From: a virus
Direction: 5' to 3' (one strand)
IMG/VR virus record: IMGVR_UViG_3300029787_005452
Coordinates: 1-64,000 of that record
Length of the DNA stretch: 64,000 nucleotides
The translations under genes and the position numbers were made by a program. Below are positions 31,595-62,684 of the stretch, in pieces. Positions within the stretch are counted from its first letter, which is position 1, and each line of letters opens with the position of its first letter. Under the pieces are notes generated by a model, which was given only the letters and a program-made list of their open reading frames with translations, did not search any database and was not told the DNA's origin.

Positions 31595-31678
31595 ATGAGT
31601 CGTTCATCTCTTTTAGAGATCTCTTTAAAGGAGACGGAAGTAAGAGACATAGTGTCCCTGAAGGAACGCGTGAATTAA
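31595..31678 (+). CDS. Possible 27-residue leader peptide
   Basis: A short ATG-started frame (MSRSSLLEISLKETEV, then RDIVSLKERVN) begins right after a TTAAATATAT element, 24 nt upstream of a second small gene. The same stretch can form several small hairpins (GACA/TGTC; CGTG/CACG). It may be a real peptide, a regulatory leader, or merely a structured 5' untranslated region. Confidence 0.3.
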   Translation: MSRSSLLEISLKETEVRDIVSLKERVN

Positions 31679-42137: not shown

Positions 42138-42166
42138 ATTATATGAACGTTCCTTAACTTAATCAA
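42138..42166 (-). promoter_or_regulatory. Sigma70-like promoter TTGATT-N17-TATAAT
   Basis: It ends 6 nt before the ATG at 42131 and overlaps the last codons of the sugar epimerase gene. It predicts a leaderless mRNA. Confidence 0.75.
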
Positions 42167-44832: not shown

Positions 44833-44837
44833 AATAT

Positions 44838-44865
44838 ATTTTATATTATAAATTTATTATTTCAA
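44838..44865 (-). promoter_or_regulatory. Sigma70-like promoter TTGAAA-N16-TAAAAT
   Basis: It lies in the only sizeable gap inside the glycan cluster and ends 5 nt before the ATG at 44832. Confidence 0.6.
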
Positions 44866-45845
44866 GTGTTATCCTGCATTACTCTGAGTATATGAGTTGC
44901 CCTTGCTTCAGTGGTACCTACATTTAATAACCATTTCATTTGTTCATCTAAATAAAACATATATTCATCAGTAGGTTTATTATTTACTACCAATCTATTT
45001 GTAATTTCATCTAACTCTTCCTTGGACGAATACCATAAGCAAGGTATACATTGTGGTGAACATGTAGCTGCTTTTAAATTATAATCTTTAAATAATAAAA
45101 CAGATCTAGCTGCAATAATTTCATAATGTCTTAAGCAGTCCCATCCTCCTTTTTTGCATGTAAGTCCGAACCACGATTTATTTAAATCATTATAATAATC
45201 TTCTTCAACTGTAAATTTATGATGAGAAAAACCTCCCCCTAGATCTTTTACCTCATTAAAAATAGCATTATCTGGTGCAGTCTTTTGATATAACTGTTCT
45301 TTTTTAGATACATCAAACTCCATAATTCTATGTTTAGGTATACCAAAACCCGTAGGGTATACATCTTCTACCTTTTCAATTAATTCTCTCTTGAATGACT
45401 TTCTAAATTGCACACCAATAACATTTAATTCTTCTTCACCTTCTTTTATATCAATTTTTCTTGGAGCATCACCATGTAAATCATGACCATCTAAAACCCA
45501 TACATTACCATTAGCAAGTTTGTTTAATTCTTTATCAGTGCTTTCACCATACATATGACCATCTCCATATAATATAGCATCAAATTTATCAAGGTTACGC
45601 TGTTCTTGAGTTAGATCTTTAATTGGTTTTGTTAATAAGCTAAAACCTCTACCATGAAGACCATCTTTAGGTGACTCAGAAAAATCATGGTACATTATTT
45701 TCTTTTTTGGGTAATCGACACAATTTTCTCCCATGATAGTTCTTAAACCGTTTAATATACCAACTTCAAGTAAATCATTTTGAGGTCCAGGATTTTTAGT
45801 TGGTACGAATAAAATTTTATAATTATTATTTTTCATATTTTGCAT
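44862..45845 (-). CDS. Glycosyltransferase-like protein
   Basis: A 327-residue protein. The C-terminal half contains FGLTCKKGGWDCLRHYEIIA, the G-W-(D/E)-(T/C)-x-R-x-(Y/F)-E pattern seen in phage and bacterial glycosyltransferases with a GT-B-like donor domain. The N-terminal part holds AILYGDGHMYGES and VLDGHDLHGDA. Donor and acceptor are unknown. An ATG at 45836 is an alternative start; the gene overlaps the formyltransferase gene by 20 nt. Confidence 0.65.
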   Translation of the reverse strand: MQNMKNNNYKILFVPTKNPGPQNDLLEVGILNGLRTIMGENCVDYPKKKIMYHDFSESPKDGLHGRGFSLLTKPIKDLTQEQRNLDKFDAILYGDGHMYGESTDKELNKLANGNVWVLDGHDLHGDAPRKIDIKEGEEELNVIGVQFRKSFKRELIEKVEDVYPTGFGIPKHRIMEFDVSKKEQLYQKTAPDNAIFNEVKDLGGGFSHHKFTVEEDYYNDLNKSWFGLTCKKGGWDCLRHYEIIAARSVLLFKDYNLKAATCSPQCIPCLWYSSKEELDEITNRLVVNNKPTDEYMFYLDEQMKWLLNVGTTEARATHILRVMQDNT

Positions 45846-46518
45846 TTGTTAAAAATAGTTTTGAACCATTTTTGCATTTTATATATGCATTTGGGTATGG
45901 ATCTTGTAGCCCTATTATTTTATTAAAAATTTGTTCTGCGGTAAAATATTTAAAATCTGATAAATTTATTTCACTTTGTTTAGGGGTTCTTCTTTTATAA
46001 TAACTACCTTTCTCTTTTTGAACGATAAATTTAAGTTCATCATCTTTAATTAGATCTAATATAATTTTTTTCAATCCTCTCACCCCTAAATTAGTAATTT
46101 TTTTATATATGCCGTTTAAACCTGATAATTTAACTTCTTTTAAATTGAATTCTTCTTGATATATAATTGGACCTTTATCTAACGATTCATCCATTTTAAA
46201 TAGAGTTATACCAGATTTTTTCTCATTATTAATTAATTGATTTTGTAATGGACTACCACCTCTATATAATGGTAATAAAGAAGGATGCAAACATATGCAT
46301 AAATTATTATCTACTATATCTTTTTGTATAATATCGCTCCACCCTATAAAAAATATTATATCAAATTTATCTTTTTTTAATAAATTGAGAAATTTTTCTT
46401 GTGTATTACATCTTATAAATTTAACATTATCATATGAAAATGTAAATTCAATTTTCTTACAGATTTCATCAGACCAATCCCTATAAGAACATAATAAGAC
46501 TTTTTTTAATCCACCCAT
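45826..46518 (-). CDS. Sugar N-formyltransferase-like protein
   Basis: A 230-residue protein with the formyl-transferase N-domain: LHPSLLPLYRGGSPLQNQLI, GITLFKMDE and LDKGPIIYQ with the catalytic Asp. In the usual N-x-H-x-S-L-L-P motif the Asn two residues before His is replaced by Cys (ICLHPSLLP), which may alter activity. It overlaps the PIG-L deacetylase gene by 13 nt: removal of an N-acetyl followed by N-formylation would give a formamido sugar. The second domain is short, so a sugar and not a tRNA substrate is likely. Confidence 0.8.
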   Translation of the reverse strand: MGGLKKVLLCSYRDWSDEICKKIEFTFSYDNVKFIRCNTQEKFLNLLKKDKFDIIFFIGWSDIIQKDIVDNNLCICLHPSLLPLYRGGSPLQNQLINNEKKSGITLFKMDESLDKGPIIYQEEFNLKEVKLSGLNGIYKKITNLGVRGLKKIILDLIKDDELKFIVQKEKGSYYKRRTPKQSEINLSDFKYFTAEQIFNKIIGLQDPYPNAYIKCKNGSKLFLTNAKYEK

Positions 46519-47129
46519 CTTAATATTTGAAATGATTCTGCATTTTTGTAATTAGATTGCACTCCTCTCATTCGAGCTATTAATTTTAACATTTCTGGAC
46601 TTCTATGACCTCTTACTTGAGATTTTAAAAACTTATATGATTTTATTTTATCATCAATATCAATTGGTACAAAATAATTACCTTTGAATGTACTATTAAT
46701 ATCATGGGTATAGTCCCATAAAAAGCTATGTACTTCTTCATACGCTAAAACCTTTTTTACAAAATGATTTTCATCATGATGTCTTAAAGCAACTAAGCTT
46801 GCATCATATACAGTAACGTGATCTTGATTATATGAAGGATATGGTATAAAAATTTTATCAGGTTTAATTAAATTAATTTGCTCTTCAATTTGATGTATTA
46901 AATCTCTAATCGCATAATTATTAACTCTGTTATCAAAAACTTCAAAAGTAAATTTTTTATATTTTTGTAAATCTTTTAATTCTTCTATTCTTTCTTCCCT
47001 ATTTACTACATGAAATTTATCTACACCACATTCCATTACATGAGCATTATCATGTAATGCGCAGTAACAACCTAATACTTCATCGTCAATATGCGGAGAT
47101 ATTATTAATGTTCTTTCTTTATTACTCAT
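46506..47129 (-). CDS. PIG-L/LmbE-family N-acetylsugar deacetylase
   Basis: A 207-residue protein with ISPHIDDEVLGC (the zinc-binding H-x-D-D motif) near the N-terminus, FIPYPSYNQDHVTVYDA with the second His, and a long loop between. The family removes acetyl groups from N-acetylglucosamine-type sugars. It overlaps both the GT2-like gene upstream and the formyltransferase downstream, so it probably provides the free amine for formylation. Confidence 0.88.
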   Translation of the reverse strand: MSNKERTLIISPHIDDEVLGCYCALHDNAHVMECGVDKFHVVNREERIEELKDLQKYKKFTFEVFDNRVNNYAIRDLIHQIEEQINLIKPDKIFIPYPSYNQDHVTVYDASLVALRHHDENHFVKKVLAYEEVHSFLWDYTHDINSTFKGNYFVPIDIDDKIKSYKFLKSQVRGHRSPEMLKLIARMRGVQSNYKNAESFQILRWVD

Positions 47130-47850
47130 ATTCTACAAAAATTTCTCGACCACCAATTAAGCTCGAACTTGATGGACCAGCTCCTTCAGCATCTGGTTTT
47201 ACATCCAATATTGATTCACTCCACGTTTGCCAGCTATCACTTATATCTTTTCTTTCTTTTCCTAAAAATTGATCCCAATGAAAATATTCCTCATCTGGTA
47301 TATGTTTTACTATCCTATGACCTTGATCGGTATATTTTTTTAACCAAAAAGGAGTCGATTGATGGCCGCCTGGTACATTAAGATGTGATTTCCAACTTTG
47401 ATCATATTCTGCTTCATGACCTTCATATATACGTAAGTTAGCAATTTTTAGTCTATAAACCCAATCCCTATCTTCCCATCCACCGTTAATAAATCTTTCA
47501 TCCCACCAACCAATTTTTCTAACTAGTTCTTTTGAAAAGGCCATAAAAGCAACACCCCAAAAAGTTGTCCATGCATAACCATTTTCTAAATGTTCAATCA
47601 TTTTTTCTACTTCTTCTGGTTTAGGAAAAGTTCTATCATTTATAAAAAATACCCACTCAGTTGGTGATGTAACTATAGAATGATTAATTAGTTGAGAATA
47701 CGATGGGTATATACCTGGGTGTCTATCTATTCTATTATTCCAATGTACTTTATACTTATCGGTTATAGGTTTAAGCATTTCAATCTGCTTATCAGTGACC
47801 TTTCTATCACTTCCACAGTGCAAGCAAATAGTAAATTCTTCTATTTTCAT
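47122..47850 (-). CDS. Glycosyltransferase, GT-A (GT2-like)
   Basis: A 242-residue protein. YPSYSQLINHSIVTSPTEW and VFFINDRTFP give the nucleotide-binding half; FINGGWEDRDWVYRL gives the ED-x-D acceptor motif of GT2 and GT7-like enzymes. No membrane segment. It is part of the overlapping transferase run. Confidence 0.75.
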   Translation of the reverse strand: MKIEEFTICLHCGSDRKVTDKQIEMLKPITDKYKVHWNNRIDRHPGIYPSYSQLINHSIVTSPTEWVFFINDRTFPKPEEVEKMIEHLENGYAWTTFWGVAFMAFSKELVRKIGWWDERFINGGWEDRDWVYRLKIANLRIYEGHEAEYDQSWKSHLNVPGGHQSTPFWLKKYTDQGHRIVKHIPDEEYFHWDQFLGKERKDISDSWQTWSESILDVKPDAEGAGPSSSSLIGGREIFVEYE

Positions 47851-48656
47851 AATGGATATTTTATACTATATTCTTCAAATCTCCAGGGTTGCCCTCCAGC
47901 AAAATGTCTATAAATTGTTTTTTCAGGTGTTGTTCTATTAATGTCATATGTATTAGGTTTACCTATTTTATGGTCTCCTGTTTCTTCATAAAGTTGAGTT
48001 ACATTCCATTCTGTTGGTAAAACTTGAACATTTTCTTTTAATTCCTCTAATGAAAATAATGTATGTTCAGTTGGGTAAGAATGAAAACCTAAGTTTTCTA
48101 TTTCATAAAATGATTTCCAACTATGAGGCTTAATACCTGCACATGTATAATACATTTGCTGATCTGCAATATGCCATTTGCCTTTTTCATTATTATGCTC
48201 ATTAAAAAATTCATAGTTACTTACTTTAAGCCATCTCTCTCTATTAATAATTGCATTAATTAATTTTCTACTAAATTCATTAATTTTTAATGCAAAAAAT
48301 CCAAAACAATGTGTATTTCCAGAATCTATAGCGTAAGTAAATCCTTTATCTACATCTATAAATTCATCCATTTTATTTATAAAAATATCTGCATCATAGT
48401 TATAAATTACATCGCCATCTTTTAACGAACCTTTATCTAAAAGATCTTTAAAAAGCATCCACCTGTTAAAATGCATATTTTCTCTTTGATCAAATTCAGG
48501 ATGCAATGTTCTAATATTAAAATTAGAATGATTCATTTCAATAAATTTTAGACCATGCATCTCAGCATATTTTTCAAAACGAGGTCTAATATATTTTTCA
48601 TACATGGCCTGTCTATGCGGGTCATATAATACAAATGTAGTTAAAAATTTTTTCAT
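47847..48656 (-). CDS. Glycosyltransferase, GT-A fold
   Basis: A 269-residue protein with FNRWMLFKDLLDKG and VIYNYDADIFINKM, the DxD donor-binding motif, and a later HIADQQMYYTCAG. The order resembles GT34-like or capsular galactosyltransferases. It has ATGA overlaps on both sides. Confidence 0.72.
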   Translation of the reverse strand: MKKFLTTFVLYDPHRQAMYEKYIRPRFEKYAEMHGLKFIEMNHSNFNIRTLHPEFDQRENMHFNRWMLFKDLLDKGSLKDGDVIYNYDADIFINKMDEFIDVDKGFTYAIDSGNTHCFGFFALKINEFSRKLINAIINRERWLKVSNYEFFNEHNNEKGKWHIADQQMYYTCAGIKPHSWKSFYEIENLGFHSYPTEHTLFSLEELKENVQVLPTEWNVTQLYEETGDHKIGKPNTYDINRTTPEKTIYRHFAGGQPWRFEEYSIKYPL

Positions 48657-49399
48657 AATAAGTTCATATATTTTTTAGTATGACCTTGGAAGTGTAAACC
48701 ATAAAATTCGACTTCTTTATTATTATAATTAATACCAAAAACTTTATTATCAATTTTTTTTAATTGTTTAATTTCATTTTTCATTTTAAATTCATCTTCA
48801 ATGTTATTTTTAGACATACCTATACCTCTATCAAATACACCACCTTCTAATTTATAAAGATTCTTATTACTTTTATACCAATGGTACATTAAAGTCATAT
48901 CGCATATACCCCCTCCCGTCTGGGTAGATACATGCCATTGCCATTTAGGCATTAATATTTCAATATTTTTTTTATACGTTTCAATTAAAAAATTACAAAA
49001 GTCTTCTATACCATTTTTTGTCCATATCGAATTGTGTATACATACTATATCATCAAACCTAGATTGATCTTTAGGTTTACAAGCAACGCATAATTCATCA
49101 TCTAAAATTTTTTCAAAGTCTAAAAATTTAAGAAATATTGCATCAGTATCACACATTAAAAATTTATCTATTTTGTTTTCAGTTGCATATTTTAATGCTG
49201 AAAAATATCTATAAAAACAAAACCTTTCAAAGTATTCAGCATTATAAGACATATGTTTATAAACTGAATCAAATAATGGAAAATTATTATCTTTTAATCT
49301 AACAATATTTTTAAAAATTTTACCATTTAATGATAAACTTTTTTCAAGATAATCAACATCATTCGGCTGATAATAAAATAATGGTAAATCACTTTTCAT
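48653..49399 (-). CDS. Glycosyltransferase-like, DxD protein
   Basis: A 248-residue protein with RFCFYRYFSALKYATENKIDKF (abridged) preceding LMCDTDAIFLKF, the DxD motif, and STQTGGGICDMTLMYHW as candidate acceptor loop. C-terminal YGLHFQGHTKKYM fits GT-A enzymes that act on short glycans. It overlaps the exostosin-like gene by 11 nt. Confidence 0.68.
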   Translation of the reverse strand: MKSDLPLFYYQPNDVDYLEKSLSLNGKIFKNIVRLKDNNFPLFDSVYKHMSYNAEYFERFCFYRYFSALKYATENKIDKFLMCDTDAIFLKFLDFEKILDDELCVACKPKDQSRFDDIVCIHNSIWTKNGIEDFCNFLIETYKKNIEILMPKWQWHVSTQTGGGICDMTLMYHWYKSNKNLYKLEGGVFDRGIGMSKNNIEDEFKMKNEIKQLKKIDNKVFGINYNNKEVEFYGLHFQGHTKKYMNLL

Positions 49400-50252
49400 C
49401 TTGCAAATATCTTAAAATTGTTTTACTCATACCTTCCATAGTAAAATATTCATTATATACTTCTTTACCCCGTTTAAGCATATTTTCTATATCTTTTTCA
49501 GAATAACTTTCTAGTTTACTCTTCAAATTAGGTATTTCATCCTCATGTATACAAACAGCAAACTCAGACCAATCAATATATTTTTTGAAAGGAAACCATT
49601 CAGGGTTGTAAATAAATACCGGTATACTACCTAATTGCATTACTTCATAAAATCTAAAACTTTGTTTACCATAACCACGTGGACATAAAGAAAAAATTGA
49701 TCTTTGAGTAGTATAAATAAATTCTTTCAAATGATCATTTTGTACTTTATCAGTCCACATTCTCGGCTCATTAAAATAAAAACTATTATCATCATAATAA
49801 GTTTTATATAATTTAACTCTAGCAGATGCATTATGAGATATAGTACCAACAAAAGAACAGAAAATATCTTTATTCACTTCTTTAATAAGATTTTTTTCTA
49901 TAGGGCTACATATTAAAGGTAAAGGTATACCATTTTTATTACCACCTGCTTCGAAGCTCAAAGTACCAGGGGGGAGTATTTCTTGTACTGCATCATCATG
50001 TTGCGATACTGTAAAATATTTTTTATCTTTCGGTAACCAATTTAAATATGGTTGTAATAATTCTTTGTTTTTACTCGTAATATATACACTTGTCCAATAA
50101 ACAGGAATATAGGTATAACCTGTTTTATCGAACGTATCCTTATGGTTTTTATAAAACTTATAAAAGTATTCTTCTAAGTAATCACCTTTGTGATAAGGTG
50201 GATACGTAGGATAGTCTGCTGGTACTCTTAAATTTTTAAAATTAACTTCCAT
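49389..50252 (-). CDS. Exostosin-like (GT47) glycosyltransferase
   Basis: A 287-residue protein with FTVSQHDDAVQEILP, DIFCSFVGTISHNA, RSIFSLCPRGYGKQSFRFYEVM (abridged), LGSIPVFIYNPEW. SLCPRG...R-x-x-E-x-x-x-x-G-x-I-P-V is the exostosin C-terminal signature. It likely adds a sugar to a growing glycan, with unknown donor. Confidence 0.8.
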   Translation of the reverse strand: MEVNFKNLRVPADYPTYPPYHKGDYLEEYFYKFYKNHKDTFDKTGYTYIPVYWTSVYITSKNKELLQPYLNWLPKDKKYFTVSQHDDAVQEILPPGTLSFEAGGNKNGIPLPLICSPIEKNLIKEVNKDIFCSFVGTISHNASARVKLYKTYYDDNSFYFNEPRMWTDKVQNDHLKEFIYTTQRSIFSLCPRGYGKQSFRFYEVMQLGSIPVFIYNPEWFPFKKYIDWSEFAVCIHEDEIPNLKSKLESYSEKDIENMLKRGKEVYNEYFTMEGMSKTILRYLQDEK

Positions 50253-50940
50253 TTATTCTTTTTCTAACTATATCTAAAATTTTATACTTATCATCTTTTG
50301 TACGAGTCCAGTTACCATGGTGTATAAAAATATTATCTGGTATTGGAAAAGTTTCATCTGTATTAAACCAATGACCTTTTAAACCACCTTTACCGTCTGG
50401 TTGACCTGCTATGTGTCCGTAGGTCCAATATTCATCAGGTAAAACTGCCCATTTAATTTGTATCGATGGAAAGTTATGTAGGTTGCGTAATAAATAATTT
50501 GCAGTTCTTTGTTCTTCTTCAAATTTAGTTAAATTACCTAATACAGTTTTAAAAAATGATCTTGTAGTTTTATTATTTCTAACGCAGAAAAAACCAGTAT
50601 TGACTCCACCTGGTCCGTCATTTTGCCATACAACGTCTTTACCTTCCATCCTTTTTATAATATCATCATAAAAATCTCTGTATATTACTATATCAGGATC
50701 TATAAACATAAAATATTCTTTTTCTTCATCACATCTTTTTAAATTTTCATAAAAGCATGAAGCTTTATATTCCATAGTAGCATTCCAGCCATCAGTACCA
50801 AACTCTGCAGTATCGCAAAGCTGTGGTTTATTAATAATAGTTAAATCTATATTTGGGTTATATTTAAAAGAATCTAAAAGATATTCTTTTAAAAACTTTT
50901 CATGCGAGGGGGTAAATAAAGTATATGCTTTAATTTTCAT
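50242..50940 (-). CDS. Nucleotide-diphospho-sugar transferase-like protein
   Basis: A 232-residue GT-A protein: ATMEYKASCFYENL, FMFIDPDIVIYRDF (DxD-like DPD), GPGGVNTGFFCVRNN, and a conserved HHGNW near the C-terminus. It resembles GT77-like transferases. It is co-transcribed with 11-nt overlaps. Confidence 0.75.
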   Translation of the reverse strand: MKIKAYTLFTPSHEKFLKEYLLDSFKYNPNIDLTIINKPQLCDTAEFGTDGWNATMEYKASCFYENLKRCDEEKEYFMFIDPDIVIYRDFYDDIIKRMEGKDVVWQNDGPGGVNTGFFCVRNNKTTRSFFKTVLGNLTKFEEEQRTANYLLRNLHNFPSIQIKWAVLPDEYWTYGHIAGQPDGKGGLKGHWFNTDETFPIPDNIFIHHGNWTRTKDDKYKILDIVRKRINGS

Positions 50941-51700
50941 TATTTAAAATCTTTCTTTCTAATTGTAGCTCATTTTCAAAAGGTTTCCACCATAATATAT
51001 CATTTACAGTTTGTCTTTTAAGTAAAACGTTTTGAACAAAATTCCACCATCTACTCATTTCAGGTACTGTCTGTGCAATATTAGTATTATGCTGCTCATA
51101 CTCATCTGTATCTTTACATGAAACAGAATCATGTTCTATGTGAAAAATTACTGGTGGTTGTTTATTTAAAATTTTATATTTACTATTTATTACCGATATA
51201 ATAAAAAATACTGTATCCCAATATGGTTTACCCAAATAAAGAAAAGGAAATTTATATGAATTTTTTACCCACCAATCTCGTTTAAAAGCAAAAAGATCAA
51301 AACCATGTACACTATATGATTGTATTTTAAGTTCTTCATCTAAAGAATTAAGTTCATGTAAATGACCTCTACTTGCTGGATATGATTCAATATCATCTTC
51401 AAGTTGTTTAAAGAATGTATTATTTAAAACTATATCGTTGTTAATAAAAACAATTAAGTCATTATCTGTTTTTGATAATGCGTTTAGTAGATCGTTTACG
51501 AAGGGATACTTACCTTCTTGTTTAATTTTTATAGTTTCAAAATCATTAAAATTTATATCATCTTCATCAGATATAATATTATATAAAGTAACATTATCGT
51601 TTTTATCTTTACATTTTCGTAAAGATTCTAAACATAATTCTTCTCTTCTACTGAGATCTTTTTCATTTTTAAAACTATTGATTCCTATTGCTATTTTCAT
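50930..51700 (-). CDS. GT2-like glycosyltransferase
   Basis: A 256-residue protein starting MKIAIGINSF, with LIVFINNDIVLNNTFF (the DxD-like N-D-I) and GFDLFAFKRDWWVKN. The N-terminus matches its neighbours at 51675 and 52442 (K-I-x-I-G-I), so the three probably arose by duplication and divergence. Confidence 0.75.
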   Translation of the reverse strand: MKIAIGINSFKNEKDLSRREELCLESLRKCKDKNDNVTLYNIISDEDDINFNDFETIKIKQEGKYPFVNDLLNALSKTDNDLIVFINNDIVLNNTFFKQLEDDIESYPASRGHLHELNSLDEELKIQSYSVHGFDLFAFKRDWWVKNSYKFPFLYLGKPYWDTVFFIISVINSKYKILNKQPPVIFHIEHDSVSCKDTDEYEQHNTNIAQTVPEMSRWWNFVQNVLLKRQTVNDILWWKPFENELQLERKILNNEN

Positions 51701-52445
51701 AAATTTTACTTTTTACTTCTTCCTTAGATAATTTAGGGATAGTTTGAATATTATCATGATGTTTATCGAAAAACATTTTATATTCAGCTGAAAGTTTTTT
51801 ATCTCTTGCCCCACCCTCATTAATTCTTGTTTCAGTTTCAGGGTGATTCATAATTAAATCATCTGAATTTTTTATATCTGGAAAATACCAAAATGCTGGT
51901 ATATGTTTAGTTTTTGATATTCTATATACATTTTCTACATCAAAAATATATCTAAATTTATTATCATAAAGACCGGTATCATTTAAACATTCTTTAGTTT
52001 TAAAAGTAAATTCATTACACATATTAGGATATAAACCGACTGATACATCTTTACTATATTGTAATTCAACTGCAGGTGTCCTATTACCAGGTTCACCCGA
52101 ACCCCAACTGGTACTTGCAAAACAAAAATAACCTATTTTACTCTTTTCAGCTGCTTCAATATATTTTTCAAATATATCTGGATCTTTAATAACCATATCA
52201 TCTTCTAAAGTAATATAATAATCACAATCTCTTTCTTGTAAAAATCTTAGATTATCATTTCTACAAACTGAGGGATAATAATTTTTTTTATGCTGTATCC
52301 AATGTGCATCTTTATAATTACCTTTGTAAGGTTTACCTCCGTTAACTACTACTAATTCATCAATTTTATCTAAAGGTAAAGAATCGTAAAGATCCTTAAA
52401 ATAATGCTCTGCATTATATGTTGTTATACCTATACCTATTTTCAT
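51675..52445 (-). CDS. GT2-like glycosyltransferase
   Basis: A 256-residue protein: IGIGITTYNAEHYF at the start, YYPSVCRNDNLRFLQERDCD, then YYITLEDDMVIKDPDIFEKYIEA (abridged) with the EDD motif, and a C-terminal charged tail. Clearly paralogous to 52442-53209. It overlaps the next gene by 26 nt. Confidence 0.82.
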   Translation of the reverse strand: MKIGIGITTYNAEHYFKDLYDSLPLDKIDELVVVNGGKPYKGNYKDAHWIQHKKNYYPSVCRNDNLRFLQERDCDYYITLEDDMVIKDPDIFEKYIEAAEKSKIGYFCFASTSWGSGEPGNRTPAVELQYSKDVSVGLYPNMCNEFTFKTKECLNDTGLYDNKFRYIFDVENVYRISKTKHIPAFWYFPDIKNSDDLIMNHPETETRINEGGARDKKLSAEYKMFFDKHHDNIQTIPKLSKEEVKSKIYENSNRNQ

Positions 52446-53209
52446 AATTCTTTAAAATATTTTATTACACTATTAATATCATCATATTGTTGGTTAGCGT
52501 TTGTTACATCTATATTAAATTTATTTTTAAACCTTTCAACCCCCTCTTTAAAATGTTTTAACCAATCACCTTTTCTTATTGTTGATTTTCCATGATTTTC
52601 ATCTTGATCATCCATGTATTGATTACTATTTTCAATATCAATAAACCATCTAAAGGGAGGGTGATATCCTTTATTAATTGCTTCCATAGTATGGTCTACA
52701 TGTTCCATAGCATTGTAATAAACTTCATCCATTAAACCTATATCTTTCAATACTGAACTGTGATAATACGAGCATGCTCCATAAACATTAAAATATAAAG
52801 CAACTTTTACACCTCTTATATCAAATATTTTTCTCGGATTAGGTTTGGCCCCATTTATTTTATTATCATGCCCGTGTAAACAATAATTAAAATGTTTAAC
52901 TTTTGTTTTTTTAGATGCTTCTATATATTTTTCAAATACATTTTCTTTAAAAACAACATCATCTTCAACTATAAATATATGTTCACATTCATTATCTAGC
53001 AAATGCTGTAATGCTTTATTTTTTGTTTTACCTACACCTAGATTTTTTTCATTATTAATTATATTTTTATTTGAATCTTGTAAAGGTATTTCACCGTCAT
53101 TAATTATAACTAATTCATCATACCAATCTTTTTTTATACTTTTAATACAATTTTTTAAAAAATTATTACGATTACACGTTATAACTCCAATTCCAATCTT
53201 TGATATCAT
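52442..53209 (-). CDS. GT2-like glycosyltransferase, first gene of the glycan operon
   Basis: A 255-residue protein: KIGIGVITCNRNNFLKNCI, LGVGKTKNKALQHLL, IFIVEDDVVFKENVFEKYIEAS (abridged), and EHVDHTMEAINKGY as acceptor loop. A classic GT2 arrangement. It begins 6 nt after a -10 element, so it is the leader gene of the 13-gene cluster. Confidence 0.88.
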   Translation of the reverse strand: MISKIGIGVITCNRNNFLKNCIKSIKKDWYDELVIINDGEIPLQDSNKNIINNEKNLGVGKTKNKALQHLLDNECEHIFIVEDDVVFKENVFEKYIEASKKTKVKHFNYCLHGHDNKINGAKPNPRKIFDIRGVKVALYFNVYGACSYYHSSVLKDIGLMDEVYYNAMEHVDHTMEAINKGYHPPFRWFIDIENSNQYMDDQDENHGKSTIRKGDWLKHFKEGVERFKNKFNIDVTNANQQYDDINSVIKYFKEL

Positions 53210-54373: not shown

Positions 54374-55081
54374 ATGATAACGTTTGACGAAAAGTCTCAT
54401 ACTTACAAGTGTAGTAAGACTGGTAGAGAGTTAATATCAGCAACTACTTTAATAGGTAAGTATAAAAAGCCATTCGATAAAATGGAAAATGCAACTCGTG
54501 TAGCCAATAGAGAAGGTTTAGATGTTGAGTTTGTATTAGATATGTGGGAGAAAGAAAAGAATCGAGCTTGTGATTATGGCACTAATATTCATAAGGTTAT
54601 GGAGGACTATTTAACTGAAGGGGTAGTAGAAGAAGAGCATGAATCTTTATACATTTCTTTTAATAAATGGAATCATATCTTTAAAAAGTTTCCTACTTTA
54701 TTATGTGAAGAAAAATTACATGATTTAGATAATTTTATTGCTGGTACTGCAGATTTAATTTACGAAAATAAAACTCATTTTATGGTTGGTGATTTTAAGA
54801 CTAATAAAGCATTTAATTTCTTCTCTCCTTATAATGAGTTTATGCTAAAACCAATGGACCATTTAAGTGTATGTGAATTCAATACATACGGGTTGCAGTT
54901 ATCTTTATATGCATATTTACATGAAAAGAGTTCAGGTAAAAAATGCACTGGATGTGTTATATTCTATAAGGATAAAGAAAATAGATTTTACCCTATTAGG
55001 GTCAACTATATGAAGAAAGAAATTATTTCTCTAATAGAAGATTACAATAATCCCAATTCACTATCTTCAAAAATTGATTAA
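54374..55081 (+). CDS. PD-(D/E)XK nuclease, RecB/Cas4-like
   Basis: A 235-residue protein: GTNIHKVMEDYL (the His/Glu of motif 1), FIAGTADLIYEN, MVGDFKTNKA (D-x-K catalytic core) and YGLQLSLYAYLHEK (Q-x-x-x-Y motif). This is the exonuclease domain type of RecB, AddB and Cas4. It probably processes DNA ends in recombination or packaging. It has no SD site and begins 6 nt after a consensus -10. Its 3' end overlaps the convergent SOD gene by 59 nt. Confidence 0.85.
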   Translation: MITFDEKSHTYKCSKTGRELISATTLIGKYKKPFDKMENATRVANREGLDVEFVLDMWEKEKNRACDYGTNIHKVMEDYLTEGVVEEEHESLYISFNKWNHIFKKFPTLLCEEKLHDLDNFIAGTADLIYENKTHFMVGDFKTNKAFNFFSPYNEFMLKPMDHLSVCEFNTYGLQLSLYAYLHEKSSGKKCTGCVIFYKDKENRFYPIRVNYMKKEIISLIEDYNNPNSLSSKID

Positions 55082-55643
55082 TATATTTTTCTCTATCTGG
55101 TCCATATTTCTTGTAATATGCGTGTTCCCAAACGTCAATACCTAATATAGGGGTTCCCATATTATACATTAATGGGTTATCTTGGTTGTCGGTGGGAACT
55201 ATTTTTAATTTATTTCCTCTTTTTACTAACCAAACCCAACCGGAACCAAAATGCGTTTTTGCTTGTTCCTTAAATTGTTCCTTAAATTTATCAACAGTCC
55301 CGTATTGTTTTTCCAGTAACTCTTTGATATTTCCCTTTATTGTGGGTCTATCAGGGGACATCATGTTCCAGAATAGTTGATGATTGTAAGCCCCACCTGC
55401 ATTGTTCCTTATAGCTGGTTTTTTCTTAGCTGATTTTGTAACTAATTGTTCCAGTTCCATTTTTTTAGTTCCTATAGCTTCATTTAATTTTTTTATGTAC
55501 CCTTTATAGTGTTTATTGAAGTGTAATTTCATTGTTTCTTGATCAATAAATGGTTCTAAACTATTAAAATCATAAGGTAGTTTTATGGGTTTGTACCCAT
55601 TTAATTCTTCTAAAAGTAAATCTGTTAAATTATCGTAATTCAT
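55023..55643 (-). CDS. Fe/Mn superoxide dismutase
   Basis: A 206-residue protein of the Fe/Mn SOD family: LPYDFNSLEPFIDQETMKLHF with metal ligand His41, NNAGGAYNHQLFWNMMSP with His88, HFGSGWVWLV, and GIDVWEHAYYKKYG with Asp170 and His174. All four ligands are present, so it should convert superoxide to H2O2 and O2; Fe or Mn preference cannot be told. No signal peptide. GGGAGG 5 nt before the ATG, inside the end of the preceding gene, gives a strong ribosome-binding site. Confidence 0.93.
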   Translation of the reverse strand: MNYDNLTDLLLEELNGYKPIKLPYDFNSLEPFIDQETMKLHFNKHYKGYIKKLNEAIGTKKMELEQLVTKSAKKKPAIRNNAGGAYNHQLFWNMMSPDRPTIKGNIKELLEKQYGTVDKFKEQFKEQAKTHFGSGWVWLVKRGNKLKIVPTDNQDNPLMYNMGTPILGIDVWEHAYYKKYGPDREKYINQFLKIVNWDYCNLLLEK

Positions 55644-56803: not shown

Positions 56804-58852
56804 TTATTTAGATTTAGCTCTATATACTTGATCCCAATCTTTACCTGGGTCATTTACCTTAAGATCAGCAACTCTTTCTTTCATCATATTATAATAATAT
56901 TCCAATATAGGGTTTATTTTAATGCATTTATTAAGTAATTTATTAGCCTCTAACCATTTTCTTTCTTTATATAGTTTTAAGAATAAATCATGTTGTAAAT
57001 AATCAAATTTTCCATCAATCACTGTATATACTTTTATACCTTCTTTCTTACCCTTAACAGCAATTTTATCTAATTCTATAAATTTAAATTTATTACCTAT
57101 TAGTTTAGTAGTTTCTTGACCTAATAGAATACCTACTCCATATGATTTTGTCTGACCTTCAAGTCTTGCAGCTAAATTAACACCATCCCCTAAACATGTA
57201 TAATCAAATCTTTGTTCTGAACCCATATTACCAACTACAACTCTACCAGTATTAATGCCTATACCAATTGCTAATGGTTTCTTACCTTCTTCAATTAACT
57301 GTATATTAAGATTAGAAAGTTCTAATTGCATTTTTATTGCAACTTCTATAGCTTTAATGCGATGAGATAATTGATCTTCAGGTAAAGGTGCATTCCAAAA
57401 TGCCATTAACGCATCGCCGATATATTTGTCTATTGTACCACCGGATTCCATAACTATTTGAGTCATGGGTGTGAGATATCGATTAATAAGATAAGTTAAC
57501 CCTTGAGGGTTATCTTTAAACTGCTCACTAATAGTGGTAAAACCTCTGATATCGGAAAATAATATAGTTAAGTCTTGTGTATCACCTCCAAGTTTTAACA
57601 TATTAGGATTTTTTTGTAATTTCTTAACTATTTCAGGGGCTAGGTAATGCTCAAACTGTTTTTTAATTAACATCTTACCCTTATATTCATGTATAAATCT
57701 AAAGAATATAGCTAATGTAAATACTAAAAAAGTACTATAAATTGGGTATGTAAAATCGTATAATAAATTATGAAAACTAAATAACCAAAAGCCATATATA
57801 GGTAAAGCAACTATAACTACACCTATTAGTAAACTGTTAATAACCCATAGAAACCTAAGCGCACATAGCGTCAACAGTAAGCTCAGTGCTATAGTAAATA
57901 GTATTTCATATAAGGTTGCTTCAACTGGTCTTACTAATATATTTTCATTAGCTAATGTTTCGACGACTTGTAAATTTAATTCATGACCACTACTAACCTT
58001 TATAGGGGTTGCTACTGAATTAGATAACCCTTCCGCTGTTAAAGCTATTACTGCTATAGTATCCTTTACAGAAGACCAATCTTCACTAGTTAGTGAAATT
58101 TTATTAAACTCAGTATCATAATTAATCCATACTCTTGCGTTTTCATCTGTTTCAAAAGTCCCAACATTTCTTAATCTAATAGCACTTACACCAGCATGGT
58201 CTACTTTAACCTGATACGATCTATCATCTACTAAAGTTCTTAAAATTTCTAAAGGTAAAGTTGGGTATACTTCATCTTTAACTTGTATCATTAAAGGCAC
58301 CCGTCTAACCACCCCATCAAGCTCGGGTGCAGTAACAGTCATACCCACTCCTTTAGAAAACATACCTACACTTTCAATAGGACCTATACCATTAGGGTAA
58401 TCAAATAACCAATCATTTAACTTTACCGAACCTATTGTTGTAATATTCTGTTTTACTAATACACCTTTACCTTGTAATGCAGCAGACTGAGTAGTAACGA
58501 CTGGGTAATGATATAAAATATCAGTAAAAGTTTTATCTCCTCCTAATCTATCTTCTTCAGCAAATAAGATAGGTAAAACTACTAATCCTGCCCCATGGTA
58601 ATAAGCTTTTTCTATATAATGAGCTAAGACATCTCTCTTCCATGGCCATTGACCATATTTTTCTAAACTTGATTCATCTATTTCTATAATAGTAAATAAA
58701 TCAGATTTTTTTACTTTTTGTGTTTTTTGATAATAGTCTAAACCTTTTAATCTTAAGATTTCTACAGGATAGGGGTCATATATTCTAAGTACTGAAAATA
58801 AAACTGCAGCTATAGTACAATATATGAATGGTTTGAATTTATTAAGTTTCAT
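56804..58852 (-). CDS. CHASE2-domain membrane adenylate/guanylate cyclase
   Basis: A 682-residue protein. An N-terminal membrane helix (8-25), an extracytoplasmic CHASE2 sensor (about 30-300; IIEIDESSLEKYGQWPWKRD, VSSGHELNLQVV), three membrane helices (about 313-385), then a class III cyclase domain: LTILFSDIRGFTTISE with metal Asp434, YIGDALMAFWN with Asp480, and YTCLGDGVNLAARLEG with Asn559 and Arg563. All key residues are present, so it should make cAMP or cGMP. A short C-terminal helical region follows. It overlaps the FecR-like gene by 4 nt, as the last gene of the curli-like operon. Confidence 0.95.
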   Translation of the reverse strand: MKLNKFKPFIYCTIAAVLFSVLRIYDPYPVEILRLKGLDYYQKTQKVKKSDLFTIIEIDESSLEKYGQWPWKRDVLAHYIEKAYYHGAGLVVLPILFAEEDRLGGDKTFTDILYHYPVVTTQSAALQGKGVLVKQNITTIGSVKLNDWLFDYPNGIGPIESVGMFSKGVGMTVTAPELDGVVRRVPLMIQVKDEVYPTLPLEILRTLVDDRSYQVKVDHAGVSAIRLRNVGTFETDENARVWINYDTEFNKISLTSEDWSSVKDTIAVIALTAEGLSNSVATPIKVSSGHELNLQVVETLANENILVRPVEATLYEILFTIALSLLLTLCALRFLWVINSLLIGVVIVALPIYGFWLFSFHNLLYDFTYPIYSTFLVFTLAIFFRFIHEYKGKMLIKKQFEHYLAPEIVKKLQKNPNMLKLGGDTQDLTILFSDIRGFTTISEQFKDNPQGLTYLINRYLTPMTQIVMESGGTIDKYIGDALMAFWNAPLPEDQLSHRIKAIEVAIKMQLELSNLNIQLIEEGKKPLAIGIGINTGRVVVGNMGSEQRFDYTCLGDGVNLAARLEGQTKSYGVGILLGQETTKLIGNKFKFIELDKIAVKGKKEGIKVYTVIDGKFDYLQHDLFLKLYKERKWLEANKLLNKCIKINPILEYYYNMMKERVADLKVNDPGKDWDQVYRAKSK

Positions 58853-59757
58853 TGTTGAATAATATTTATAGACACGCTACCACCTGCATTTAGAACGCCT
58901 TCAGTTATGGTACCTTTATTATCATATTTTAATGATACGTCAGAAACTGAAGGTACAATTAATTTAATTTTATTTTCATTATCAGATGTAAATGTAGCTT
59001 TATCATCTTCTATCTCAAAAATTGAGTTTTGATCATCATCTTCAAATTCTATAAATGATGCTTCTTCTAAAAAATCATCATTATTATCTTTTTCTACTGT
59101 TTCATCTTCAACGTTTTCGTTTATTTCATTTTTGATTTCAATAGTTTGATTTTTTCTATTATTATCAATTATAGGTTTGGATGGGGAAGAAAAAGTAGAG
59201 GCAACTGAAGTTACTTCAAATGCTTTAGTTAGAACTACTGAACCTATATTATTAAAAACTTCTATAGAACCAACGTAAGTATTACCATTACTATCTTCTG
59301 ACGGTAATAAAGTAAACGTACTTTCACCGGATTCTTTAACTATAACTTCAAAATCAGTACCTCTAACTGATACAGAAGCTGTAGGAGTAGTTATCTTTAT
59401 ATTTTCTTTACTATTTTTAGCAATTAAACCTGATGTATATCTTAGTTTACCGAAAGATGCTTTTAAACTTACTTTACCCTTTTTTGTATTATTGTCATAC
59501 ACGAATTCATCTATTATTAACGTTGAATATTTTGCAATAGTAACTTTGGTATCATCTACAAATATTATTTTTATATTACCGTCTAAGGTTTCTATTTCAT
59601 CATACATTTCAACTGGCGTACCTAAACCAGTTAAGTATTTTTCTGTACCTCTAGTAATTTGCCCGGGTTGAGACTGAAAAGAAACCTCCCCAACTTTAGA
59701 AAAAGCAGAGGAGGTTATAAAAACAAATACTAAAAAAAGATTAAGGACCGACTTCAA
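58849..59757 (-). CDS. FecR-domain periplasmic protein
   Basis: About 302 residues when started at the TTG inside the curlin stop region, giving a clean signal peptide (MKSVLNLFLVFVF then ITSSAFS). The FecR domain spans about 30-150: VTIAKYSTLIIDEFVYD, KASFGKLRYTSG, ITTPTASVSVRGTDFEV. It is followed by an acidic linker (about 185-255) and a small C-terminal beta domain. FecR domains are sensor or scaffold modules, often encoded beside CHASE2 cyclases in bacteria, so it may signal to the cyclase. A longer ATG start at 59814 would lie well inside the curlin gene. Confidence 0.85.
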   Translation of the reverse strand: MKSVLNLFLVFVFITSSAFSKVGEVSFQSQPGQITRGTEKYLTGLGTPVEMYDEIETLDGNIKIIFVDDTKVTIAKYSTLIIDEFVYDNNTKKGKVSLKASFGKLRYTSGLIAKNSKENIKITTPTASVSVRGTDFEVIVKESGESTFTLLPSEDSNGNTYVGSIEVFNNIGSVVLTKAFEVTSVASTFSSPSKPIIDNNRKNQTIEIKNEINENVEDETVEKDNNDDFLEEASFIEFEDDDQNSIFEIEDDKATFTSDNENKIKLIVPSVSDVSLKYDNKGTITEGVLNAGGSVSINIIQQ

Positions 59758-60526
59758 TAAATGTACCTTGTGCGAAATCAGGTGTTGGTACCGGTTGTGT
59801 ATAACTTCCATCAAAATTACTTATAGTACCAAGACCTTCCAATCCAGCAGTATAATTACCATCAGACTGTATAATTGTAAAAGTTGTATCATTACCATAA
59901 TGGGTAAGCTCTAATGTTTGGTATTCAGATCCTGATTGTACCAAGTTAAGAATATTACTATCACCTTGAAGTTGTACGATTTGGCTATGACCTAAACCAA
60001 GATTACCTCCTTCTTGAATAGATGTAATTGTATTACCATTACCAATTAGGGAAATATCTGATACTGCTGCAATATTATCATTAAGATAAAAATCTAATAT
60101 ATTACTGTTACCAATAATATAATTTTTAAGATATTGCTGAGAAATATTTGAAGCTTCAGCTGTTGTATCATCTTTCTTAATTGAAATATCGTTACCATCA
60201 CCTAATAAGGTATTAGTAAATGTATTTTGATCACCTGATACTAAAATATCTTGCTTATTACCATTACCTTCAATATATAAATCGAAATCTGTTTGATCTC
60301 CAGACCATTCAATATCTAATTCATTAGCGTTACCGATTTGAGAAATATCAAAATCACTACTATCTCCTGCAATAGTAGAAATGTCAGTTGAAGCTCCTAT
60401 TCTATTTCCTGAACCTACTTGAGTAATATCGAAGGTACCTGTTGAACCTTCTTGTTCTAAGTAAATTTCGTTATTTGCAAATGCAATAGAAGTTGTTAAT
60501 AATAATGCTAGTAATGTTGTTTTCAT
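59741..60526 (-). CDS. Curlin-like (CsgA/CsgB type) amyloid subunit
   Basis: About 261 residues with a signal peptide (MKTTLLALLLTTSIAFA) followed by imperfect repeats of the curlin pattern I-x-Q-x-G-x-x-N: DITQVGSGNRIG, DISQIGNANELD, YIEGNGNKQDI, LLGDGNDISI, IIGNSNILDF, LIGNGNTITSIQEGG, VQLQGDSNILNLVQSG, THYGNDTTFTIIQSDGN. Around eight to ten strands would stack as a beta-solenoid, as in amyloid curli. The length is greater than E. coli CsgA. It has its own TATAAATA promoter 5 nt before the ATG. Confidence 0.85.
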   Translation of the reverse strand: MKTTLLALLLTTSIAFANNEIYLEQEGSTGTFDITQVGSGNRIGASTDISTIAGDSSDFDISQIGNANELDIEWSGDQTDFDLYIEGNGNKQDILVSGDQNTFTNTLLGDGNDISIKKDDTTAEASNISQQYLKNYIIGNSNILDFYLNDNIAAVSDISLIGNGNTITSIQEGGNLGLGHSQIVQLQGDSNILNLVQSGSEYQTLELTHYGNDTTFTIIQSDGNYTAGLEGLGTISNFDGSYTQPVPTPDFAQGTFIEVGP

Positions 60527-60531
60527 AATTA

Positions 60532-60539
60532 TATTTATA
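60532..60539 (-). promoter_or_regulatory. Late-type promoter TATAAATA of the curlin gene
   Basis: Perfect TATAAATA 5 nt before the curlin ATG, in the 34-nt gap after csgG. Confidence 0.7.
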
Positions 60540-60560
60540 AAAATATAACTATAATTTTTA

Positions 60561-61352
60561 CTATTCAACAAAATTCCACAAGCCTTTTTCGTCTCCTTGT
60601 AACATTAAATCAATTATGCATGCATCTATAGCTTTTCTTGTTGCAATTGAAACTCTTTCATTTCTAGCATAACCTATTTCAGCTTCACCATAATCATTAA
60701 ATTCACCCAAACCTAATTCATCAGTATCAAAATACTTAAAAAATGTTGCGCCGGCACTAACACTTAAAATAGTTTTACTTACTGTGGATGATAATAATAT
60801 TTGACCTGAATTAACACTAACAAATCTCATTGAAACTGTCACATTATCTTTTCTATATTGTTTTTGACCACCTATACCTAAGTAACTGGCACCAATACCA
60901 CCTGATACAATATTACTTTCATATGAAATAATTCCCCCCTCGACCAACATACCAGCAAATAATAAAGCTCCTAAATCTTCTTCTTTATCATTAAAAGATT
61001 TTCTATTAGTTTTAATAATATTTCTTTCGTTAAGTAAATTAGCAAGATTAGCTCTTTCAACCACTTTAAACCATTTACTATTACCAGCTTCTATTAATGA
61101 TTCTATAACCCAAGCTTCCCCACCTTGGGTAACTGCTGATGAAAAAGATGCATAATTATCAGCTGTCTTTCTTTGACCAGTTTTATCGTCAAAAGAATAA
61201 ACTGCAACAAATATAGGAGCTTCTTTTACTTCTTTCATATCCCCTTGTTCAATCATATAAGGTGGTTTTTGAACCCATGGAGGATTTTGTACAGGTGTCG
61301 ATACACAACCTACCATTAATAATAAACTTAAACTAATTAAAAATTTTATCAT
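60561..61352 (-). CDS. csgG: CsgG-like curli secretion channel lipoprotein
   Basis: A 263-residue lipoprotein: signal peptide with lipobox LMVGC (Cys16), then a mature part matching CsgG: PIFVAVYSFDDKTGQRK, VVERANLANLLNERNII, FAGMLVEGGIISYESN, GGIGASYLGIGG, VTVSMRFVSVNSGQILLSSTVSK (abridged), TILSVSAGATFF and a C-terminus LMLQGDEKGLWNF. CsgG forms the nonameric outer-membrane pore that exports curlin. It overlaps csgF by 4 nt (ATGA), so the two are translationally coupled. Confidence 0.96.
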   Translation of the reverse strand: MIKFLISLSLLLMVGCVSTPVQNPPWVQKPPYMIEQGDMKEVKEAPIFVAVYSFDDKTGQRKTADNYASFSSAVTQGGEAWVIESLIEAGNSKWFKVVERANLANLLNERNIIKTNRKSFNDKEEDLGALLFAGMLVEGGIISYESNIVSGGIGASYLGIGGQKQYRKDNVTVSMRFVSVNSGQILLSSTVSKTILSVSAGATFFKYFDTDELGLGEFNDYGEAEIGYARNERVSIATRKAIDACIIDLMLQGDEKGLWNFVE

Positions 61353-61813
61353 GGGGTCTCAGTTGCTGCTGGTGGTATGTATAAAGAACCTATTGGTATA
61401 ATAATACTTGTAGTCGAACCATCAGTTAAATCGTTTATAGTCAAATAAATTTGATCGTCAGCAGATTTATACCATGTTATAGTACTATTCTCAATCGAAA
61501 AAGTACCTGTCTCTAATCCATCATCAGCAAATAATTGCTCTGTAACTTGTTTAGCTAATTCAGAATAAATTCTAGCCTGCAAACTTGATAAAAATGTATT
61601 TACCGCTGATCGATCTTCAGCTAATTGAGCTTGCAATTCAGCTGATTCAATTTCATCTTCTATAGCTTTTTTTCTATTAAATGAAATTTGCTCTAAAGTT
61701 AATTTATGAGCAGAATAACCAATACCTGTAAATGTCGGTGATTTAAATTGAAATACTAATTCACTTCCTAATAAAGTTAATGGAAGTAACAAACATAGAA
61801 TAATCTTATTCAT
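61349..61813 (-). CDS. csgF: CsgF-like curli assembly factor
   Basis: A 154-residue secreted protein: signal peptide (NKIILCLLLPLTLLGS) then LVFQFKSPTFTG, the N-terminal motif by which CsgF inserts into the CsgG pore, a helical middle (FLSSLQARIYSELAKQV) and a beta C-terminus (TINDLTDGSTTSIIIPIG). CsgF extends the CsgG channel and links secretion to nucleation. It is the first gene of the operon, with a perfect TATAAATA upstream. Confidence 0.9.
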   Translation of the reverse strand: MNKIILCLLLPLTLLGSELVFQFKSPTFTGIGYSAHKLTLEQISFNRKKAIEDEIESAELQAQLAEDRSAVNTFLSSLQARIYSELAKQVTEQLFADDGLETGTFSIENSTITWYKSADDQIYLTINDLTDGSTTSIIIPIGSLYIPPAATETP

Positions 61814-61818
61814 AGAAT

Positions 61819-61826
61819 TATTTATA
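61819..61826 (-). promoter_or_regulatory. Late-type promoter TATAAATA of the curli-like operon
   Basis: Perfect TATAAATA ending 5 nt before the csgF ATG, identical in sequence and spacing to those of gp21 and the gene at 938. Confidence 0.72.
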
Positions 61827-61828
61827 TG

Positions 61829-62137
61829 TTACTTTGTCTTTTTCAATAATTCTTCTTCTTTTGCTTTAAACTCTTTTTCTAAAATTTCTCTTCTTTCTTT
61901 TTCTTGAAGTATCATTTTAAGTTTAATGTTTAAACGAATCATATCGTTATCTAACATTCTAACTTTATCTATTAAACCTATAAGAGTTTTTTTAGATGAT
62001 CCAATGGTAGGAGATATTTCTTTTGTAACCCATTGCCATACATAATATACAAAATAACCTAAACCTATTGCAGCTATAATTGGAAATCCAAAGTCATTAA
62101 CTAACTTTGAAAAGTGGTCTATCATTTGATCATTCAT
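61829..62137 (-). CDS. Small membrane protein with coiled-coil tail
   Basis: A 102-residue protein: a short N-terminus, one membrane helix (FPIIAAIGLGYFVYYVWQW), then a long charged helix (KKTLIGLIDKVRMLDNDMIRL and a KE-rich end). It is the third in a row of similar small membrane proteins, and directly upstream of csgF with 15 nt between, so it may share that transcription unit. Role unknown; holin-like or structural anchor. Confidence 0.6.
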   Translation of the reverse strand: MNDQMIDHFSKLVNDFGFPIIAAIGLGYFVYYVWQWVTKEISPTIGSSKKTLIGLIDKVRMLDNDMIRLNIKLKMILQEKERREILEKEFKAKEEELLKKTK

Positions 62138-62145
62138 ATTTTTTA

Positions 62146-62403
62146 TTATTTAGAAGCGAGACCACCACCCATTCTATTTTCTAAGAATTTTTTTATTTGC
62201 TCTAGTCGTGAACGGTGTACCATAAGCGTGTCCATTTGACTACTAATTCTTACATCATGGTAACCAAGTTGTTTTTTTAAATCGTCAATTTGTATTTGTT
62301 GTTCTTGTACTATTTGAGAATATTTATTTATATCTCTATCTAATAGATAAAAAGATGTTACTACAAGTAAACCTAATACGGTAAATATTATATTTTTTTT
62401 CAT
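62146..62403 (-). CDS. Small membrane coiled-coil protein
   Basis: An 85-residue protein with an N-terminal membrane helix (NIIFTVLGLLVVTSFYLL) and a heptad-rich helix (VQEQQIQIDDLKKQL; HRSRLEQIKKFLENR). The single N-terminal anchor plus periplasmic coiled coil is like an i-spanin, but no lipoprotein partner is beside it. It starts by overlap with the upstream stop. Confidence 0.6.
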   Translation of the reverse strand: MKKNIIFTVLGLLVVTSFYLLDRDINKYSQIVQEQQIQIDDLKKQLGYHDVRISSQMDTLMVHRSRLEQIKKFLENRMGGGLASK

Positions 62404-62684
62404 TAATCTTTTCTTGCGTCCTCCTTTCCTTCAGATGCTGCTATCCTATCTAAGTTTGGTTCAACATTAAATGCATGAGATATTAAAGTATCAATTTTAA
62501 CTATTTCATTAGTCATAACATCGACTCTATTTTGTAAACTTGCTATCATTCCTCCTAGACCAGCTACACCGCCTTTTACCCCGTTTAATATAAATTTTAA
62601 AATAATAAAAATAAATACACCACCAGATAATGCCCCTGCAATAGGAAAGCCAACCTCGGTAAGAAATCTAATAAAACCACTCAT
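62403..62684 (-). CDS. Small membrane protein
   Basis: A 93-residue protein with one Gly-rich membrane segment (GFPIAGALSGGVFIFIILKF) and an amphipathic remainder. The N-terminal EVGFPIAGAL is like DFGFPIIAAI in the protein at 61829, suggesting paralogy. ATAAATA precedes its ATG, so it starts a late unit that leads through two more membrane proteins towards csgF. Confidence 0.6.
   Translation of the reverse strand: MSGFIRFLTEVGFPIAGALSGGVFIFIILKFILNGVKGGVAGLGGMIASLQNRVDVMTNEIVKIDTLISHAFNVEPNLDRIAASEGKEDARKD

Follow-up and report, generated by a model that had tools for sequence, protein, structure and literature searches.

The first 64,000 bases of a 185,197-base IMG/VR virus record (IMGVR_UViG_3300029787_005452), referred to here as the window, contain a curli-like unit on the minus strand, a single overlapping series made up of csgF and csgG, a gene with curlin repeats, one for a FecR-domain protein and one for a CHASE2 cyclase. 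The source, a marine phage, is divergent and T4-like; its gp23 reaches at most ~35% identity to named phages among the matches listed. csgF (61349-61813; Pfam PF10614, 3.1e-18, above cut-off) overlaps by 4 nucleotides (nt) csgG, which encodes an outer-membrane lipoprotein pore (60561-61352; PF03783, 1.9e-49), and a gap of 34 nt leads to the curlin-repeat gene (59741-60526, ATG start, 261 amino acids (aa); PF07012 and the NCBIfam CsgA model). This gene overlaps by 17 nt the FecR-domain gene (58849-59757, TTG start, 302 aa; PF04773, 1.3e-9), which in turn shares 4 nt with the gene for a protein combining CHASE2 and a class III cyclase (56804-58852; Pfam 6.5e-34 and 4.8e-24). CsgF, CsgG, FecR, CHASE2 and the cyclase domain all exceed the Pfam curated cut-offs. 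The junctions match exactly those of an earlier sequence-only reading of the window, which had proposed this five-gene unit. Its five genes stand, and only its start has to be moved, as two small conserved genes lie further upstream: S2 (61829-62137, minus strand, 102 aa; phrog_18771, conserved with S1) and, at the head of the unit, S1 (62403-62684, minus strand, 93 aa), recognized by its conservation beside the unit.

When IMG/VR was searched with alignments of CsgG and of the cyclase, 405 and 439 relatives emerged, respectively; the best 80 of each were taken, their loci dereplicated, and only those with enough flank counted (21 anchored on CsgG, 28 on the cyclase). All five genes are present in 49/49 of these viral loci (21/21 and 28/28), a figure biased by the sampling of the nearest relatives (identity span ~40-90%) and drawn from two anchor sets that may overlap in some contigs. 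Purifying selection acts on all seven genes, S1 and S2 included, the ratio of nonsynonymous to synonymous substitution rates (dN/dS) being ~0.04-0.18 against the window's two nearest relatives, L084 and L085. Given this co-occurrence and selection, the five-gene grouping is not due to chance, and the co-conservation in related phages that had been suggested as a check, with curli-type export genes stably tied to FecR and a CHASE2 cyclase, is what these loci display. The amyloid surface layer with cyclic-nucleotide reporting that was inferred in the sequence-only reading is a reasonable interpretation, supported in part. The window clade has a single curlin gene, and many relatives show the order curlin-FecR-curlin.

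The earlier caution that the csgG/csgF pair might not be new was well placed and extends to the whole unit, the novelty of which is ruled out by three papers. A curli operon has been described in pelagimyophages (PMC7029224). A 2022 study (PMC9599517) reported the module in many pelagiphages, podo- and myoviruses, as a “histidine kinase”, CsgF, CsgG, CsgA/B, FecR, often a second CsgA/B, and an adenylate cyclase. CsgG and CsgF of phage Melnitz have also been discussed, with a proposed role in lysis (PMC9004378). Among 50,697 phage records, the same gene order occurs in Pelagibacter phage HTVC008M (NC_020484) and in four Melnitz-type methylophage records, and no other record matched both FecR and the full-length cyclase. 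The window shares with HTVC008M and the pelagiphage type VIII secretion systems the csgF-csgG-curlin-FecR-(curlin)-cyclase order, the small genes upstream and the lack of CsgE, but it has one curlin where HTVC008M has two, a FecR protein of 302 aa instead of 368, a third small open reading frame (ORF) between S1 and S2, and just 41-43% identity to HTVC008M in CsgG and cyclase. The Melnitz unit (MZ577097) has the same genes in the same order, S1/S2 included, but a Ser replaces the transition-state Asn of its cyclase; PMC9004378 reports no csgA/B in Melnitz, yet two curlin-repeat proteins are annotated in its record. Curli operons of bacteria, such as csgBAC/csgDEFG of E. coli and the alphaproteobacterial csgF-csgG-curlin type, also hold CsgF, CsgG and curlins in one operon. 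In 14 cellular loci with csgG (from Olleya, Sphingomonadaceae, Erythrobacter and others) csgF adjoins csgG, most have curlins, which are larger and often present in several copies, and no match to FecR or a CHASE2 cyclase lies in flanks of up to 10 kb. The one cellular exception, a Pelagibacter-bin contig of 3 kb with phage-type CsgF, CsgG, curlin and FecR, is probably viral. The additions made here to the published accounts are a strand shared by FecR and curlin, the S1/S2 pair, the late promoters and the divergent single-curlin variant.

S1 is built of a single N-terminal membrane helix and a predicted coiled coil, and ends in an invariant C-terminal GKxDAR[RK]D motif. S2 is its paralogue (both belong to phrog_18771) and likewise has a predicted coiled coil in addition to its single membrane helix. 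In the window, an 85-aa membrane/coiled-coil protein, identified from its ORF and hydropathy, is encoded between them (62146-62403, minus strand); S1 and S2 adjoin directly in Melnitz (L002) and HTVC008M (L003). The pair accompanies the unit in 47/49 of the dereplicated full loci and is kept even in loci where it has been flipped to the opposite strand and follows the cyclase. An independent scan with S1 placed it beside the unit in 22/22 loci with full flanks, 20 of which hold csgF/csgG and the other 2 the cyclase and FecR near the edge of the stretch, and among the 50,697 phage records S1 is found only in the 6 that carry the unit; S2, too, is confined in named phages to those with the unit. 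Its dN/dS is 0.04-0.08, and its identity between unit-carrying named phages (57% and 52%) lies above that of CsgG (45% and 43%). S1/S2 are thus near-constant members of the module, and probably correspond, from their position, to the “histidine kinase” of PMC9599517. That label is corrected here: neither protein has a kinase-family match, HisKA and HATPase domains are lacking, and a histidine kinase is ruled out by the absence of a kinase domain. S1 has no match in Pfam or NCBIfam. An assignment of S1/S2 as BhlA-type holins was also rejected, as the record holds no profile match.

The lipobox of CsgG, MVGC, is intact, as had been read from the sequence, and the CsgG profile matches the solved E. 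coli protein at 2.2e-65. The N-terminal F-x-x-P-x-F-x-G motif of CsgF aligns weakly with solved CsgF (E 0.09). A CsgG-type protein (36% identity) is also encoded at 229-948 of OR851715.1, a 1.5-kb record labelled Salmonella phage, where the gene is possibly host DNA.

The curlin repeats that had been claimed for the third gene are present, in degenerate form: PF07012 (Curlin_rpt) scores 18.2 bits in a single-protein scan, below its cut-off of 20.7, and 29 bits once neighbouring in-frame repeats are added, and the NCBIfam CsgA model matches the protein at 6e-6. The protein carries a signal peptide. Its Gly/Asn content is periodic at lags of 11 and 22 residues (the lag-22 value was reached by 3/2,000 shuffles), and its AlphaFold model is a β-solenoid with strand pairs every ~22 residues (predicted local distance difference test score, pLDDT, 75). 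The second curlins of HTVC008M (L003, 10638-11963; annotated as hypothetical in its record) and of another relative (L009, 12643-13950) bear an N-terminal PA14 (GLEYA-like) domain, with Pfam scores of 2.7e-6 and 4e-10, respectively; the window's curlin carries no domain of this type. Such a domain fits a displayed adhesive fibre, and suggests that these second curlins serve as fibre-borne adhesins.

The FecR protein consists of a signal peptide, a FecR fold, an acidic disordered linker and a C-terminal curlin-type strand, GGSVSINIIQQ. In its model, residues 22-195 form a confident domain and residues 215-264 the disordered linker. A hydrophobic-x-hydrophobic-x-Gln pattern lies within the last 20 residues of 87/88 distinct viral FecR proteins, and the stricter N-x-h-x-h-x-Q tail (h, hydrophobic) in 43/88. 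Control tails from other viral C-termini have the former in 53/1,249 cases and the latter in 1/1,249, and within the module the looser pattern ends 2/93 CsgG, 2/90 CsgF, 8/94 cyclase and 1/63 S1 proteins, and 90/127 of the curlins themselves. It occurs in 9% of internal 20-mers from the same FecR proteins (0.5% for the stricter motif), in a mean of 13/80 shuffled FecR tails (maximum 23), and in 1/14 alphaproteobacterial FecR tails (0/14 for the stricter motif). The curlin repeat of CsgA reads G-x-x-N-x-A-x-x-x-Q, and the spacing of the FecR tail, compared as sequence, is that of the second half of this repeat. The curlin-type strand suggests a physical tie between signalling and the assembly of the fibre, and lends independent support to the connection between fibre and sensor that had been proposed before the tail was recognized. 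The tail may serve a sensor domain as a tethered strand for anchoring or nucleation, docking on either curlin or CsgG.

The same tail bears on two other explanations. According to one, FecR is a regulator for iron or citrate after the manner of Fec systems, and the module serves to control the uptake of iron or expression in response to it; the idea has been suggested before (PMC9599517) and draws on the FecR domain itself and on its structural match to the periplasmic signalling domain of PupR (6ovk; Foldseek, E 1.6e-4, probability 1.00). However, the FecR model also matches an ice-binding adhesin in its cell-surface anchoring domain (5ix9; 62 residues, 1.3 Å, E 0.008); adhesin anchoring domains use the same fold, as this match and the Lsa33 model show. 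The signal-peptide-like N-terminus runs directly into the FecR domain, no N-terminal anti-sigma domain being found, and no sigma factor or TonB receptor is encoded among the genes of the unit. We regard an iron-managing module as very improbable, and the assignment of FecR as an iron regulator was rejected on the missing anti-sigma domain, the lack of a sigma factor and the curlin-type tail; the protein is probably a fibre- or pore-docking piece instead. According to the second explanation, a curlin fibre is made, but the FecR tail is an export or capping strand and FecR a minor, CsgB-like subunit that takes no part in cyclase signalling. The common tail of both curlins and FecR speaks for it, as does the curlin-FecR-curlin order of many relatives, but it leaves aside the constancy of the CHASE2 cyclase (49/49) and the known pairing of FecR with CHASE2 in bacteria, and we consider it unlikely.

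The six catalytic residues of the cyclase (D434, K476, D480, T552, N559 and R563; the set D-K-D-T-N-R) are complete, in agreement with the first description of the gene. The CHASE2 domain (PF05226, 6.5e-34) spans residues 17-326, with hydrophobic windows at 6 and 310-346, and is placed between an N-terminal helix and further membrane helices. Because of the Lys/Thr pair, and because the closest solved relatives are adenylyl cyclases, the protein is predicted from its sequence to be an adenylyl cyclase making cyclic AMP (cAMP). In Melnitz (L002, 12655-14706) and 22 other viral cyclases the transition-state Asn is changed to Ser and the purine position holds Asp, and all the remaining catalytic residues are kept.

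The statement in the sequence-only reading that FecR proteins often sit beside CHASE2 cyclases in bacteria was right about the pairing and overstated its frequency: a FecR gene, divergent and adjacent, was found at only 3/20 of the closest alphaproteobacterial CHASE2 cyclases examined. These three loci lack curli genes, and many alphaproteobacterial CHASE2 cyclases have no FecR neighbour, both of which would fit a stand-alone device that floods or reprograms the host with cAMP, its link to curli being genomic hitch-hiking. In viral loci with enough flank, however, the pair never occurs without the curli genes, and a curlin-type tail on FecR is not expected of such a device, to which we give a low probability. 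Known CHASE2 systems include the Sinorhizobium cyclases, which respond to a protein via the outer-membrane barrel NsrA (PMC13001267), and a biofilm-regulating operon of Burkholderia (BiofilmReg), in which a periplasmic FecR protein is encoded next to a CHASE2 membrane receptor, as in the window, but where the receptor is a kinase and not a cyclase, the tail is LysM and not curlin-type, and curli genes are lacking (PMC5192318).

The sequence NATAAATA is the late promoter of marine T4-like phages (PMC2984593). Within the unit, the T4-type late promoter element TATAAATA is found on the minus strand 5 nt before csgF (61819-61826), 5 nt before the curlin ATG (60532-60539) and 10 nt before the cyclase ATG (58863-58870), and S1 is preceded by AATAAATA. 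Exact copies of TATAAATA also precede the window genes at 17943 (prohead protease) and 18761. The element shows no overall enrichment in the window; the information lies only in its position ahead of start codons. Certain other octamers rich in A and T come to comparable fractions when the window is taken by itself, so the weight of the promoter assignment rests on gene-specific counts in related loci. In these, NATAAATA lies at most 22 nt before the ATG of S1 in 25/86 cases, the cyclase in 22/112, csgF in 18/104 and curlin in 14/161, compared with 0/110 for csgG, 0/116 for FecR, 0/88 for S2 and 0.57% of all ATG triplets. A scan for sigma-70 promoters gave counts equal to those of shuffled sequences. 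On the evidence of these elements, the unit is most likely expressed late.

Late promoters are also consistent with the timing of lysis, and a role of this kind has been proposed for Melnitz, the CsgG of which was likened to a pinholin (PMC9004378). The pore formed by CsgG and CsgF would then be the useful part, providing late passage for solutes or lysis triggers (lysis timing or uptake), with curlin and sensor secondary, and S1/S2, being small membrane proteins, are of holin-like size. Against this stand the constancy of curlin and FecR, which equals that of CsgG and is maintained under purifying selection, the lack of a BhlA-holin match for S1/S2, and the position of the glutamine riboswitch on which the Melnitz idea centres, which in the window lies 25 kb off and on the opposite strand. 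The curlin-type tail of FecR and the PA14 domains of second curlins, moreover, make sense only with an exported fibre. A pore acting in its own right thus appears improbable.

We place at about even chances that the unit is a phage module, expressed late, for type VIII (curli) secretion and surface display that brings its own sensor. What the sequence itself shows is the gene content with its overlaps, co-conservation, purifying selection, the catalytic residues, the late-promoter elements and the fold and tail of FecR; secretion, fibre formation, docking, the FecR-CHASE2 contact, cyclase activity and any effect on the host are inferred, and the machine might work as follows. CsgG and CsgF would form a pore in the outer membrane, through which the curlin-repeat protein would exit and stack into a β-solenoid fibre on the infected cell. 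In the periplasm, the folded FecR domain would extend a long flexible acidic linker ending in the curlin-type strand, which may dock on curlin or enter the pore, both anchoring or nucleating the fibre and reporting on its assembly. The CHASE2 protein of the inner membrane would read the state of FecR via its periplasmic domain and set cAMP synthesis in the cytoplasm, and the S1/S2 pair would supply inner-membrane accessory parts of the same machine. The specific form of this proposal, in which the FecR strand sits on growing curlin or in the CsgG pore, the CHASE2 adenylyl cyclase reads it, the phage reports the state of the fibre via cAMP and S1/S2 are obligatory, is tentative and somewhat doubtful. 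The roles proposed for the fibre in the literature are sibling capture, competitor exclusion, uptake and lysis.

Several observations weigh against a displayed fibre read by a cyclase. The curlin model has no significant structure match in the PDB, the curlin of the window clade is without the C-terminal curlin strand found in most relatives, the second curlin is absent from this clade, and the terminal strands of the FecR model are of low confidence (pLDDT ~54). A profile search for CsgE and CsgC gave zero matches in the whole 185-kb record, so that their absence, first noticed in the window, extends to the entire record and export may be ungated; both are missing from alphaproteobacterial systems too (PMC9599517). 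The Melnitz-type change of the transition-state Asn to Ser, accompanied by Asp at the purine position, is found in 23/81 viral cyclases, and cyclase activity may therefore not be needed everywhere. A search of the record for cyclic nucleotide monophosphate-binding domains found none, which would make the receptor the host's, located outside the record, or non-existent. Finally, no clumping was seen in Melnitz-infected cultures (PMC9004378). The module, several kilobases in length, is retained by phages of very abundant ocean bacteria; the C-terminal strand shared by FecR and curlin offers a concrete hypothesis for the presence of FecR and a cyclase inside a curli operon, and two small genes found with the module almost every time now have a corrected annotation.

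Other features of the window lie outside the unit. A gene for an Fe/Mn superoxide dismutase (55023-55643, minus strand; Pfam 1.3e-36 and 2.4e-24) is found ~1.2 kb past its downstream end. Further on, about a dozen short overlapping ORFs are densely packed at 42159-53209 (minus strand); the run is probably glycan-modifying, since its tested ends encode a sugar epimerase/dehydratase and a glycosyltransferase. The glutamine riboswitch (31599-31672, plus strand, 48.3 bits) is located ~25 kb from the curli unit, and its position and strand rule out here the control of the unit that was proposed for Melnitz, where the riboswitch lies ~4 kb upstream. Melnitz also has, upstream of its curli unit (L002, 3803-4220), a permuted transfer-messenger RNA of alphaproteobacterial type, although its host, OM43, is not an alphaproteobacterium. 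A Group I intron (6917-7151, minus strand; Rfam 84.4 bits) overlaps the end of the ORF at 7124-7828.

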